This document shows positions 26,308 to 34,411 of a stretch of 64,000 nucleotides of DNA, in pieces. The notes beneath the pieces are model-generated. The model saw only the letters and a list, made by a program, of their open reading frames with translations, ran no database searches and was not told where the DNA came from. This stretch comes from Acinetobacter sp. YWS30-1 (GTDB lineage: Bacteria; Pseudomonadota; Gammaproteobacteria; Pseudomonadales; Moraxellaceae): contig NZ_CP114606.1 of assembly GCF_033558715.1 (NCBI RefSeq), forward strand, positions 2,418,001 to 2,482,000. The letters run 5' to 3'. The stretch's first letter is position 1. Each line of letters opens with the position of its first letter. Both the position numbers and the translations under genes were made by a program.

Positions 26308-26668
26308 TCTTTAAATTTATTAGAGAATGAAGTGAATCTATTTTTTCAACTGAAATTTTTACCTAATTAGTTCCATAATCCATTCAAAATATTTTATTAC
26401 ATCTTTTAGATTAAGGTGAGATTATAGATTAAAAAATAATCACAGAATCATTTCACATATCCTTAAATAAAAAGATAAACGCATCACATAATTAAAAAGT
26501 ACAAGTTAAAAATTAAGATATAAAGTAAAACATTAAATTTTATATGGTTTTTATTTCAATTGTAATTTACTCCCCCATTTTTATAATGAATTTGAATGAA
26601 AAAGATAATATTCGAACTTCATCAAATACAACTAACGCATCAACTATTTTTATAACAGGGAAATAATT
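26308..26668. other. AT-rich leader region of the GTPase/roadblock cluster
   Basis: No coding sequence is seen in this very AT-rich stretch. It carries the promoter-like element at 26560-26587 and a leader of about 75 bases before the first gene. Confidence 0.5.
26560..26587 (+). promoter_or_regulatory. Putative sigma-70 promoter of the GTPase/roadblock cluster
   Basis: TTGTAA (-35-like, 26560-26565), a 16-base spacer and a consensus TATAAT (-10, 26582-26587), about 80 bases before the first start codon. The preceding 100 bases are almost all A/T and could act as an UP element. Confidence 0.55.
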
Positions 26669-27028
26669 ATGGCTAAGGTAACCTAAGATACACTTACAGA
26701 CATTGATGGTTTCGTTGCTGTAGCATTAGCTGATGGTGAAAGCGGCTTGGCTCTGGCAACTCAAGATGGTGGCAATATCGATCTTGAACTTGCAGCAGCC
26801 GGCAATACAGAAGTGGTTCGCGCAAAACGCCGTGTAGCGAATTCATTAAACCTGAATGACTCGATTGAAGATATTCTGATTACGCTGGGCAAGCAATATC
26901 ATCTCATTCGCCCACTCGAAAAGAATAACAATGTATTCCTGTATCTTGTACTGGATCGTTCTAAAGCAAACCTGGCTATGGCTCGTCATGAGCTTAAATC
27001 TTTTGAACAAGGTTTAGACTTTAGCTAA
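26669..27028 (+). pseudogene. Roadblock/LC7-type protein 1, stop at codon 6
   Basis: From the ATG at 26669 (GGGA eight to nine bases upstream) the frame reads M-A-K-V-T-stop, then continues open for 113 codons: '[26 protein letters not shown]...' to '...[16 protein letters not shown]'. '[19 protein letters not shown]', '[36 protein letters not shown]' and the final helix match the roadblock/LC7 fold, which dimerises and acts on small GTPases. The stop (TAA at 26684) may be a mutated CAA. The only later in-frame start is a TTG at 26747, which would delete the first strand. So this copy is probably not functional unless read through or mis-sequenced. It heads a four-gene unit. Confidence 0.75.
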
Positions 27029-27039
27029 TACACAGTTTT

Positions 27040-27065
27040 CCCCTTTATTTCATGTAATAAAGGGG
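27040..27065 (+). promoter_or_regulatory. Strong intercistronic hairpin in the GTPase/roadblock cluster
   Basis: CCCCTTTATT, loop TCATGT, AATAAAGGGG: a perfect 10-bp stem with no T-run after it. It lies between the first and second genes and may protect the upstream mRNA or partly terminate, giving more of the first product than of the others. Confidence 0.6.
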
Positions 27066-27115
27066 ATCCTTATGCGCTTCACCCAATAAAATATAAACTT
27101 TAATCGAGACTTAAA

Positions 27116-28092
27116 ATGCATAGGCATTATATTCATATTGGAATAGCAGGTTTAAGTATTCACGATGCAGATAAACTAAAAAAACTTTACAACACATCAT
27201 TCCTGACCATTTTATCCTGCAATGGAACACTGCTTCCGATCCTCATCTCGATTGCCTGTTGGTGTATGAATACTTTCTTGAAACAGAGGGTATTCAACGT
27301 GTTCTCAAAAACCAAAAATGCCCTTATTTATGCATTTCTAAAAATACTCAATACTCGAACCAGATTATAAATAATACGCTCGCTTTACCCCTGCAAAATA
27401 CACAAAATCTCAAGCACTGGTTTGAGCAAAACGTCCTAAATTCAGAAATTACCTCAGAAATAGAAGAACCTATATTTTCAGCCCCCATTCAGATCCAGCA
27501 ATCTTCTGACCATCCTTACACCATTAACTTTTTTAAAGAGATGCTGCATCCTGAAAAAGGTAAATTACATCTCTATGATCAGCATGGCACCATTGCCATT
27601 ATTGACTCAGCAAAAAACCTGGCCTGGTTAAACAAAGACCGGGCTGAAACTGGCACAGACTTTTCTTTTCAATATGACTTCGCATCTACTAGCGACCTCT
27701 TAAAAGTGACACGTAGAGAAACGCAGATTCTCCAAGACTGGTTATGGAATTTTTTCTGGAACTCGCCTAGTTTTGCTCAGATCGCACCTGAAGATGGTCA
27801 TTATAAAATTCATTACTGGCCAAAGCCGGCTCATCCGCTGCATAAAAAACGTATTTTTCAGATATCAGCCTGTTTTATTCAAGGGGCTAAAATTTCAAAA
27901 ATTGCTGAACAACATGCAATTTCTTTACTCACGCTTCGACAATTTATCGCAGCCAGTATGGCTTCAGGAAATATTGAAAAAATTAATGCTTGGGAAAGTC
28001 GCTATCGCACCACTGAGCCAGTTGAAAGAATAGAACAGCAAAATTTCATTAAAAGCTTTTTTGGAAAGCTTCGATTTAAATTTGGATTTTAA
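27116..28092 (+). pseudogene. Unknown two-part protein with C-terminal helix-turn-helix-like segment, frameshifted
   Basis: Two frames join into one sensible protein of about 325 residues if one A is added to the seven A's at 27178-27184. 'MHRHYIHIGIAGLSIHDADKLKK' then continues 'TLQHIIPDHFILQWNTASDP', 'HLDCLLVYEYFLETEGIQRVL' and on to '...KSFFGKLRFKFGF'. The N-terminal ~110 residues look like a degenerate receiver-type alpha/beta domain. Near the C-terminus 'AKISKIAEQHAISLLTLRQFIAASMASGNIEKI' has the shape of a winged-helix or helix-turn-helix. I do not recognise the family. It lies between a roadblock gene and the GTPase gene, the place held by the winged-helix-like DUF742 protein in Streptomyces conservons; that comparison is an analogy. 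Confidence 0.65.
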
Positions 28093-28106
28093 TAAAGTAA
28101 ATACTT

Positions 28107-28649
28107 ATGATTTTACAACAATATAAAATCGTTTTTGCGGGCTCCATGGGCGCAGGTAAAACAGCCGCGATACGTTCATTATCTGATATACCAGTGTTAC
28201 TCACTGAGGCACTGAATACTGACGACCGCAGCCATACAAAAATGGAAACCACGGTAGGAATCGATTATGGTGAGATCACATTAGAAGATGGAACCAAAAT
28301 TGGCCTGTATGGGACGCCTGGACAAAGTCGCTTTGACTTTATCTGGCCTGTCATCTGTCAAGGCGCACTAGGTGCCATTATCCTTATTGATCATACAGTG
28401 AGTGATCCGATCCAAGAACTGGAAAGCTATATCGAAGTATTCCAGGAATATACCCATAATATTGCCATTGGGATTACGCACAGTGATCTTGAAAGCCCTC
28501 ATTTTACCCAGATTTATAAGGACTGGCTGATCCAGCAGGATCTCTATACCCCCCTCTTTTTTGTAGATGCTCGTCAAAAAGACGACATCTTGCTTCTCTT
28601 AGAAGCCCTCATTACTTCAATCGAAGTCAACCATAACCTCATGAGCTAA
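28107..28649 (+). CDS. MglA/conservon-type small GTPase
   Basis: 180 residues. The P-loop is 'GSMGAGKTA' (12-20). A switch-I-like Thr lies in 'METTVGIDYGEI', and the G3 region is 'LYGTPGQSRFDF' (about 68-78), where the usual Asp of D-T-x-G-Q is replaced by Gly. G4 is 'THSD' instead of N/T-K-x-D. The Gln/Arg/Phe after G3 matches the MglA and CvnD group ('PGQ.RF'). Such GTPases are controlled by roadblock proteins and set cell-pole or signalling states. The cluster encodes roadblock proteins on both sides. The start is 14 bases after the preceding stop, and the next gene follows after 10. Confidence 0.85.
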   Translation: MILQQYKIVFAGSMGAGKTAAIRSLSDIPVLLTEALNTDDRSHTKMETTVGIDYGEITLEDGTKIGLYGTPGQSRFDFIWPVICQGALGAIILIDHTVSDPIQELESYIEVFQEYTHNIAIGITHSDLESPHFTQIYKDWLIQQDLYTPLFFVDARQKDDILLLLEALITSIEVNHNLMS

Positions 28650-28659
28650 GGATTAAAGC

Positions 28660-29073
28660 ATGCTTACTATACAAGAAAGACGTCAAGCCCCCGAAGCCCT
28701 CGTTCAGCATGCCAAACAGCAAATTCAGGAGATCATTAGCAATGTTCGTGGCGTATATTATGTAATGGTCTGCTCAACAGATGGGTTTGAATTGGCCACA
28801 ATTCATAAGAAAGACAACTATAACAATAGCAAGCTTGCTGCTGTGAGTAGCTCGATTTTAGCGATGGTTTCTGCATTTACTAAAGAGATCCATCTTACTG
28901 GCTGTCAGAGCATTACTTTGGATGCAGAAAATGGTAAAGCCATTTTGACAGCGGTTGCAGCACCGAAACACCCTCTTATTCTGGTCACTTTAGCCGAAAA
29001 AGATATTTTATTGGGTCAGGCCCTGTATATGCTGAAGAATGCCACACAATCCATTATCGCTGCAGATCAATAA
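28660..29073 (+). CDS. Roadblock/LC7-domain protein 2
   Basis: 137 residues, intact. An N-terminal helix is followed by the roadblock core 'IISNVRGVYYVMVCSTDGFELATI', 'SKLAAVSSSILAMVSAFTKEIHL', 'SITLDAENGKAILTAVAAPKHPLILVTLAEKDILLGQALYML'. This is the MglB/CvnB-like type expected to bind the adjacent GTPase as a GAP or scaffold. It is the last gene of the cluster. Three bases after the stop an IS3-family element separates it from its terminator at 30398. Confidence 0.87.
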   Translation: MLTIQERRQAPEALVQHAKQQIQEIISNVRGVYYVMVCSTDGFELATIHKKDNYNNSKLAAVSSSILAMVSAFTKEIHLTGCQSITLDAENGKAILTAVAAPKHPLILVTLAEKDILLGQALYMLKNATQSIIAADQ

Positions 29074-29121
29074 ATATGTCTTGTCCTGAAATAGATTGAC
29101 AGTATTCCACTTCAAACCGAG

Positions 29122-29931
29122 TTAAGCAATTAGCTCGGTTTTAGTTTGCTCATACGTCTGATTCGGGGTGTTCATATTTAAACTTAAATGTGGTCTATAG
29201 CAATTATAAATCATAATAGATTCCGCAATTAAGTGATCTAACTCCTTCATGGTTTGACATCGTGTAATTAAAAACTCCTGCTTTAATATTCCATTAATCC
29301 GCTCTGCTAATGCATTCTGGTAACAGTCTCCTCCATCTGTCATAGAAGGACATACCCCATAATGGCGTAATGCCGATTGATATAGTTCAGAGCAATACTG
29401 AGAGCCTCTGTCTGAATGATGAATCATCCTTGTCGCTCGATCCGTCACATGCTGCATCGCCATATGTAGAGCCTGCACAACATTCTCCGCACGCATATCA
29501 TTCGATAACTTATAACCTTTAATCTGACGGGTATAAGCATCTGTCACTAAGGATAAATAATGTACGCCTTCAGCACTCTCAACATAAGTAATATCACTAA
29601 CAAAGACTTCGTTGGCTTGCACTGCTGAATAATCCTTTAATAAATTTGGATGCTTCTTCATCCAATGCTTGCTATCCGTAGTTTTTGTATAGCGACGCTT
29701 GGGGCGAATCAATAAATTATGCTCTTTCAATATTTTAAATAACTGATCCCGTCCACACTTTAAACCACGCTGCAACAATTTGCCTTTAATAAGCCAATAC
29801 AGCTTACGTGTTCCGATACTTGGCATGAGACAACGATATTCCATAACCAACTCAAGTATTTGTTCAGTTGCTTGTGCAGTCATTTGAGCACGTTTTTCTG
29901 CTTGATAATAAGCTTGTCGGGTGATTCCCAA
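29122..29931 (-). CDS. IS3-family transposase OrfB (integrase domain)
   Basis: 269 residues counted from a TTG. HTH_21-like N-terminus 'RQAYYQAEKRAQ ... IGTRKLYWLIKG', then an rve integrase core with the DDE triad: 'VFVSDITYVE' (D), 'IHHSDRGSQYCS' (D) and 'NALAERINGILKQE' (E). The frame stays open upstream of the TTG ('...SQRRLSVSSYCQWLGITRQ') across the end of orfA. So the active protein is probably an OrfAB fusion made by -1 ribosomal frameshifting near the end of orfA, as in other IS3 elements. Confidence 0.9.
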   Translation of the reverse strand: MGITRQAYYQAEKRAQMTAQATEQILELVMEYRCLMPSIGTRKLYWLIKGKLLQRGLKCGRDQLFKILKEHNLLIRPKRRYTKTTDSKHWMKKHPNLLKDYSAVQANEVFVSDITYVESAEGVHYLSLVTDAYTRQIKGYKLSNDMRAENVVQALHMAMQHVTDRATRMIHHSDRGSQYCSELYQSALRHYGVCPSMTDGGDCYQNALAERINGILKQEFLITRCQTMKELDHLIAESIMIYNCYRPHLSLNMNTPNQTYEQTKTELIA

Positions 29932-29954
29932 CCACTGACAATAACTTGAAACGC

Positions 29955-30344
29955 TTAGTCTTCTTTGGCTTTGCCAATCTTTGAAACGTGCTCGGTATAC
30001 TTTTTTCCAAGATCAGTCCCACATTCTTTATCAATGTGATAAATCACATCCTGAATAAATTCAGTTTTAAGCTTTTCTGCGGCTAACTGCTTTTCTAATT
30101 GGCGGATTCGTTGTTGGGGGGTTAATTGGCGTTTAGAAGAAGTCGGCATATTCGAAGTCCAGTCCTGTTGTCCGTGCTTGCGTAACCATACCAGCACAGT
30201 TGATCTTCCTTGAATACCATATTTTGCCTGAGCTTGTTTATAAGTAATTTGCCCTTTTTCTACTTCATGTACAACCATCATTTTAAAGGCGAAGCTATAA
30301 TCACGTTGTGTGCGTTTAACTCGTTGTTCTTGTGCATGTTCCAT
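29955..30344 (-). CDS. IS3-family transposase OrfA (helix-turn-helix)
   Basis: 129 residues. The HTH_Tnp_1-like segment is 'DYSFAFKMMVVHEVEKGQITYKQAQAKYGIQGRSTVLVWLRKHG'. A leucine-zipper-like coiled coil follows ('PQQRIRQLEKQLAAEKLKTEFIQDVI'). It recognises the element ends. The downstream orfB frame overlaps its last codons in the -1 frame. Confidence 0.9.
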   Translation of the reverse strand: MEHAQEQRVKRTQRDYSFAFKMMVVHEVEKGQITYKQAQAKYGIQGRSTVLVWLRKHGQQDWTSNMPTSSKRQLTPQQRIRQLEKQLAAEKLKTEFIQDVIYHIDKECGTDLGKKYTEHVSKIGKAKED

Positions 30345-30397
30345 AAAATAAGTCTCTTAAGGTGTAAACTTATTTCAGGACGGGACAATAGATAGAT

Positions 30398-30430
30398 TCA
30401 AAAAGGCTTAAATTTATTTAAGCCTTTTTC
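30398..30430. terminator. Bidirectional terminator, originally of the GTPase/roadblock cluster
   Basis: AAAAAGGCTTAAA, short loop, TTTAAGCCTTTTT. It would follow the roadblock protein 2 gene directly if the IS3 element were absent; it also faces the rRNA operon end. Confidence 0.8.
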
Positions 30431-34211: not shown

Positions 34212-34287
34212 TGGTGGAGACTAGGAGAGTCGAACTCCTGACCTCCTGCGTGCAAAGCAGGCGCTCTACCAACTAAGCTAAGTCCCC
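34212..34287 (-). tRNA. tRNA-Ala(UGC)
   Basis: 76 nt including an encoded CCA. Starts GGGGACTTAGCTTAGTTGG; the anticodon loop TTTGCAC holds TGC; T-arm GTTCGACTC. It is the second tRNA in the 16S-23S spacer. Confidence 0.97.
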
Positions 34288-34334
34288 AGCTTATCAATTA
34301 AGTCAATGTTTCTGATTTTCTGTTTTCTGGCAGA

Positions 34335-34411
<77 letters not shown>

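Follow-up and report, generated by a model that had tools for sequence, protein, structure and literature searches.

A probable Group 3 MglA-type GTPase operon of the Acinetobacter chromosome and its probably decaying copy in strain YWS30-1

The closest described relatives of the locus presented here are the Group 3 MglA systems of Wuichet and Sogaard-Andersen (2014), which occur almost exclusively in beta- and gammaproteobacteria (PMC4316618). According to the available text of that paper, such a system consists of a protein with a receiver-like and a winged-HTH end, an MglA and one or two MglB; the G3 motif GTPGQ is common to Groups 2–5, the Group 3 G4 motif often has no Lys, and its G5 motif reads DAR. 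The MglA/MglB system of Myxococcus (Group 1) likewise combines a small GTPase with a roadblock GAP; its G3 reads TVPGQ, and an arginine finger adjoins G2 (same partial text). A single genetic study of Group 3 MglA was found in the literature searched, and it concerns an orphan gene: in Snodgrassella the mgl locus has one mglA and two coupled mglB, and a mutation in an additional, orphan Group 3 mglB goes with altered soft-agar spreading and gut competition (PMC11112851, available part). What is known of such systems in Acinetobacter? The genus is not named in the main text of PMC4316618 as far as it was available, and no description of this system in Acinetobacter came up in the literature searched, among the matches listed, where ‘roadblocks’ look metaphorical. 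The accessible part of PMC12845397 holds nothing bearing on this GTPase system, and in that of PMC10806987 mglA and mglB are other names of secretion-system genes, unrelated to it. The first-pass annotation knew of no clear description of such a unit in Acinetobacter, which agrees with these searches, but the kind of unit has been on record as Group 3.

How does our locus compare? The window (the whole stretch of DNA analysed, 64,000 nucleotides from Acinetobacter sp. YWS30-1) holds four tightly spaced genes on one strand in the order R1–Mid–GTPase–R2, as read directly from the sequence (Table 1). This is the order that the first-pass annotation gave for a unit running from 26560 to 29073, but 26560 belongs to a promoter-like site and is no gene start; promoter-like sites in the region number seven against a shuffle mean of 9.5, which is not above chance. 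It also overlooked that only the GTPase and R2 are open, R1 being interrupted by a stop codon and Mid split over two frames. The genome has one match each for the GTPase, Mid and R1; at E<=0.001, Robl_LC7 matches R2 and no other protein in it. No second GTPase copy was found in this genome or in that of Acinetobacter variabilis, the nearest relative seen. A plasmid origin was considered and is unsupported, as 128 hits in 72,556 plasmid records included only one Acinetobacter record, 60% identical.

Table 1. Features of the locus, with positions counted from the first letter of the window
Feature	Position	Strand	Evidence and remarks
Promoter-like site	26560..26587	+	10/12 consensus matches, spacer 16; consensus match only
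R1, diverged roadblock-family gene, interrupted	26669..27028	+	Reading frames; family by Pfam and orthologues
R1–Mid intergenic stem-loop, lacking a T run	27039..27066	+	z -2.76
Mid, two-part protein, frameshifted	27116..28092	+	Reading frames; homology to partner proteins of Gammaproteobacteria and Neisseria
Small GTPase, MglA type, 180 aa, intact	28107..28649	+	Pfam, motifs, constraint
R2, roadblock/LC7 protein, 137 aa, intact	28660..29073	+	Pfam, profile match, constraint
Insertion sequence, two reading frames	29077..30387	-	25-nt imperfect inverted end repeats, ATA on both sides
Likely operon terminator (perfect inverted repeat of 14 bp), moved away from R2 by the insertion sequence	30400..30429	+	

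Small-GTPase models recognise the GTPase, whose motifs include GSMGAGKT, GTPGQSRF, THSD and DAR. Its profile matches 186 distinct solved chains, and the 60 listed are eukaryotic-type small GTPases, mostly Rab proteins. The Gly in place of Asp in G3 and the unusual G4 were at first taken as alterations; both the Gly and the missing Lys are normal Group 3 motifs. G4 reads TH.D in all 12 Acinetobacter rows, and the Lys is present in three of 23 distant gammaproteobacterial rows; in G5, DCR or DPR replaces DAR in a few relatives. The identification of R2 as a roadblock protein is supported by its Pfam Robl_LC7 score of 31.3 bits (cut-off 23) and by a profile match to solved roadblock chains (2.7e-6). 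R1 scores 14.6 bits against the same model, below the cut-off, and its nearest solved chain, a weak match (E 0.091), is a roadblock. Sixteen of 20 R1 orthologues match Robl_LC7 at E<=0.1, with 8.1e-5 as the best value. Judged by these matches, R1 is a diverged relative of the roadblock family; the earlier name is kept by way of the orthologues, but the gene's own score falls short and its frame is not open, a TAA at 26684–26686 forming the sixth codon. Comparison of R1 and R2 by hhalign gave no support for homology, the alignments being shallow.

The first frame of Mid (27116–27370) gives way to the second (27175–28092) through a one-base frameshift at seven consecutive A (27178–27184); relatives, A. 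variabilis included, read this spot in a single frame. The first-pass annotation described a protein with a receiver-like N-terminus and an HTH-like C-terminus and left it otherwise unrecognised. The kind of protein probably matches the Group 3 partner, already described in the available text of PMC4316618, but it is not one open frame here. Its homologues include the partner proteins found in other Gammaproteobacteria and in Neisseria. No Pfam match of Mid exceeds the cut-off (where a cut-off was shown). HTH_40 matches nine of 22 Mid members at E<=1 (best 1.9e-4), below the Pfam cut-off where shown, and a receiver family matches only two of ten Mid proteins, weakly (E 0.18). What occupies the place of the phospho-acceptor? 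In the alignment it is His or Asn in all nine Acinetobacter rows, some of which have an Asp directly after it; in the rows of other Gammaproteobacteria it is Asp (12 of 20) or Asn (8 of 20), and in the Neisseria row Asp. The alignment, as distinct from a structure, suggests that the Acinetobacter N-terminus is a pseudo-receiver lacking the phospho-acceptor Asp.

The features shared with Group 3 are GTPGQ in G3, a G4 without Lys, DAR in G5, an adjoining partner protein, whose receiver-like and winged-HTH ends are putative here, and one GTPase gene with two genes for MglB homologues (PMC4316618, partial text). The window copy differs in its broken R1 and Mid, and Acinetobacter differs in the His or Asn at a place where many others have Asp. 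A tree of the GTPase, built from 39 rows with few long-branch outgroups and no reference set, does not prove membership of Group 3; the assignment rests on composition and motifs. That not all components are intact here bears on function and not on descent. Group 1 was considered and set aside: the window G3 is GTPGQ and not TVPGQ, and Thr-Thr (METTVGID) stands next to G2 in place of the arginine finger (PMC4316618, available text). Taken together, the window operon is, with a probability of about 0.8, an ancestral Group 3 MglA/MglB-type system, of a kind known since 2014, that sits at its old place in the Acinetobacter chromosome and is decaying in this copy. The kinship first proposed, with MglA/MglB modules and with conservons, was right in outline as to the type of GTPase switch, but the unit is no conservon.

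The GTPase occurs in 108 and R1 in 111 of 175 Acinetobacter genomes (both in 104, R1 alone in seven, the GTPase alone in four), and across the class a GTPase match was obtained in 49 of 274 genomes. Of these 49, the 20 gammaproteobacterial loci at the top of the list were opened; 19 have a Mid homologue adjacent to the GTPase, and 15 have an R2-like gene there. A single scan gave 60 named loci, all from Acinetobacter except one Moraxellaceae bin, with neighbours listed for twelve. Eight of these twelve have the gene order of the window and follow, as in the window, a GST-domain gene (probably sspA), sspB and a gene of 213–220 aa. The same order behind the same neighbours in eight loci means that the arrangement is far beyond chance. 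The named loci also include a second arrangement, GTPase–R2–Mid–R1, and a two-gene Mid–GTPase locus without adjoining R1 or R2. The first reading would have fallen had GTPase homologues never occurred beside roadblock genes elsewhere, and the neighbourhood search found them there in other genomes.

Several neighbourhoods outside this pattern were noted in passing. An operon of this kind also occurs in a Neisseria gonorrhoeae record (L182, 2891–5560), where Mid and the GTPase are fragmented and R2 is open. In a relative from the same taxonomic order (L023, 575–2900), a related GTPase lies beside roadblock-like genes and downstream of another gene, presumably that of a BLUF photoreceptor. One gammaproteobacterial locus of this kind (L151, 8441–11382) adjoins genes with T2SSE/MshEN and T2SSF domains, which are the motor and the inner-membrane protein of pilus or type II secretion systems. 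In further loci of other Gammaproteobacteria (L153, L155, L160, L162 and others) two more proteins recur: before Mid, one of about 240–250 aa, of which the single example scanned matches TPR weakly, and after the GTPase, one of about 215–235 aa, of which the single example scanned has no Pfam match; neither was seen in the listed Acinetobacter loci.

How common is damage to the module? Among the 60 named loci, genes are split by stops, a frameshift or an insertion in three: that of A. variabilis (L035), that of Acinetobacter ursingii (L091), with an insertion in the GTPase, and a second-copy locus of Acinetobacter tianfuensis (L070), with a frameshifted Mid. Re-examination of an apparently two-piece Mid in L070, L073, L082 and L083 showed a true frameshift in L070 and a single open frame in the other three; Mid of L084 has no N-terminal part and that of L033 no standard start codon. 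A second set comprised 84 loci, 80 from GTPase-positive Acinetobacter genomes plus the window, G079, G191 and L035, with many organisms overlapping the named loci; since loci were chosen by a detectable GTPase, the set is biased against a broken one. In this set R1 is full in 69 loci, damaged in four and not found within the stretch in 11. Mid is full in 76 and damaged in six (one by loss of the standard start codon, one lacking the N-terminal part), with one cut by a contig end and one falsely flagged, that of L262, which is a single frame with a long linker. The GTPase is full in 82 and broken in two, and R2 is full in 82 and absent from two. A. variabilis carries its own lesions in R1, Mid and the GTPase and neither of the window lesions.

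The two open genes still look constrained. Compared with A. variabilis, the window GTPase has a dN/dS of 0.074 and R2 one of 0.04, against 0.075–0.116 for three neighbouring genes, values that we read as a recent loss of constraint; the module would have been working until recently, and part of it may work still. Over the same pair, dS is 0.16–0.31 for Mid, the GTPase and R2 and 0.045–0.085 for three upstream neighbours, a two- to fourfold excess in the operon that may reflect codon bias or recombination. For the circuit as a whole, we infer the biochemical steps and the output as follows. In intact relatives the GTPase would cycle between GTP and GDP states, and a roadblock dimer (of R2, probably with R1) would bind it and speed hydrolysis, as MglB does. 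Mid would sense the state of the GTPase and relay it, either by way of its HTH end or as a scaffold. In the window the full circuit should fail because R1 stops at codon 6 and Mid is frameshifted, although GTPase and R2 can still be made. The window copy is thus probably falling out of use.

Could the GTPase and R2 have been kept as a working GTPase/GAP pair with another output, after R1 and Mid were lost? We consider this conceivable but unlikely. Both genes are open with few amino-acid changes, and a distant species (G079, 66–75% DNA identity to the window in aligned pieces) has independently arrived at an early R1 stop and a Mid without its N-terminal part with the GTPase and R2 open. R2, moreover, is broken in none of the 82 loci that hold it, but with 12 damaged genes in the set, and if damage follows gene length, a rough hand calculation puts the chance of this at P ~0.09, which is not significant; the selection of loci by a detectable GTPase works against finding that gene broken, and the nearest relative, A. 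variabilis, has lost the GTPase too. That R1 and the partner are being lost across Acinetobacter while the GTPase and R2 stay selected as a minimal MglA–MglB pair with an HTH-independent output is unlikely as well. Or is the operon intact and the damage an artefact of sequencing or assembly? Both lesions of the window are single changes known from one assembly, which speaks against decay, the frameshift falls in a run of A, and relatives in the genus are mostly intact. The R1 stop, however, lies outside any homopolymer run, genome completeness is given as 99.99, and two lesions in one operon together with an independent set in the nearest relative argue for relaxed selection, so that we regard errors of this kind as improbable.

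Biological rescue of the two broken genes, with Mid made by minus-one slippage and R1 by a later restart, would be very improbable. The seven-A run is a plausible slippery site with the downstream frame as the continuing one, and a TTG at 26747 could restart R1; yet relatives, A. variabilis among them, use one frame at the A run, so that frameshifting is no conserved feature, and the restarted R1 would lose its first 26 residues, several of them invariant. We give next to no chance to a true conservon-like system, that is, Group 2 with kinase and DUF742. The conservons of Streptomyces (CvnA-D; example L183) also have a roadblock gene and a GTPase that shares GTPGQ in G3 and DAR in G5, and the window GTPase is 38% identical to the conservon one over residues 4–168. 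Conservons also have a sensor kinase and a DUF742 protein, whereas the three genes upstream of the window operon gave no kinase match, an insertion sequence lies downstream, DUF742 is not among the families listed for Mid, and the host is no actinobacterium. A Group 3 operon in decay remains the reading that we prefer.

The insertion sequence, which we take to be IS3-like, sits just past the stop codon of R2 and ahead of the probable operon terminator, and disrupts no gene; in A. variabilis a similar hairpin lies close behind R2. The hairpin between R1 and Mid is predicted in all 21 stretches compared (the window and 20 picked from the 60 named loci) although their sequences are quite different, and in the 14 of the 21 tested against shuffles z ranges from -2.5 to -5.6. 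Visual inspection shows a terminator-like stretch of four or more T behind it in eight of the 21, but not in the window. The simplest reading would be that R1 is overproduced relative to the downstream genes. Farther on, the minus strand of the window carries tRNA-Ala and tRNA-Ile genes (34212–34411), a pair of the kind found in rRNA operon spacers, and several relatives have spurious rRNA-type frames downstream of the locus as well.

What might the module do? Control of pole-located machinery such as type IV pili had been suggested, and the comparison shows no link: PilT-family genes are present in 175 of 175 Acinetobacter genomes, whether or not they have the GTPase (108 of 175), so that polar pilus control as an essential role is unsupported. 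The genome of the window has seven T2SSE-family ATPases over the cut-off, none with stops. The pilus idea is therefore weak for this locus; by analogy with Snodgrassella, where the available part of PMC11112851 links a Group 3 mglB to pilus-type spreading, it may be possible.

Group 3 is a widespread class of MglA, and within the single genus Acinetobacter its module is intact, duplicated, rearranged or broken in some members and absent from others. The function of the module may hence be readable from the traits that track it across these species. In practical terms, neither annotation nor experiment should treat the operon of the window as a functional switch.
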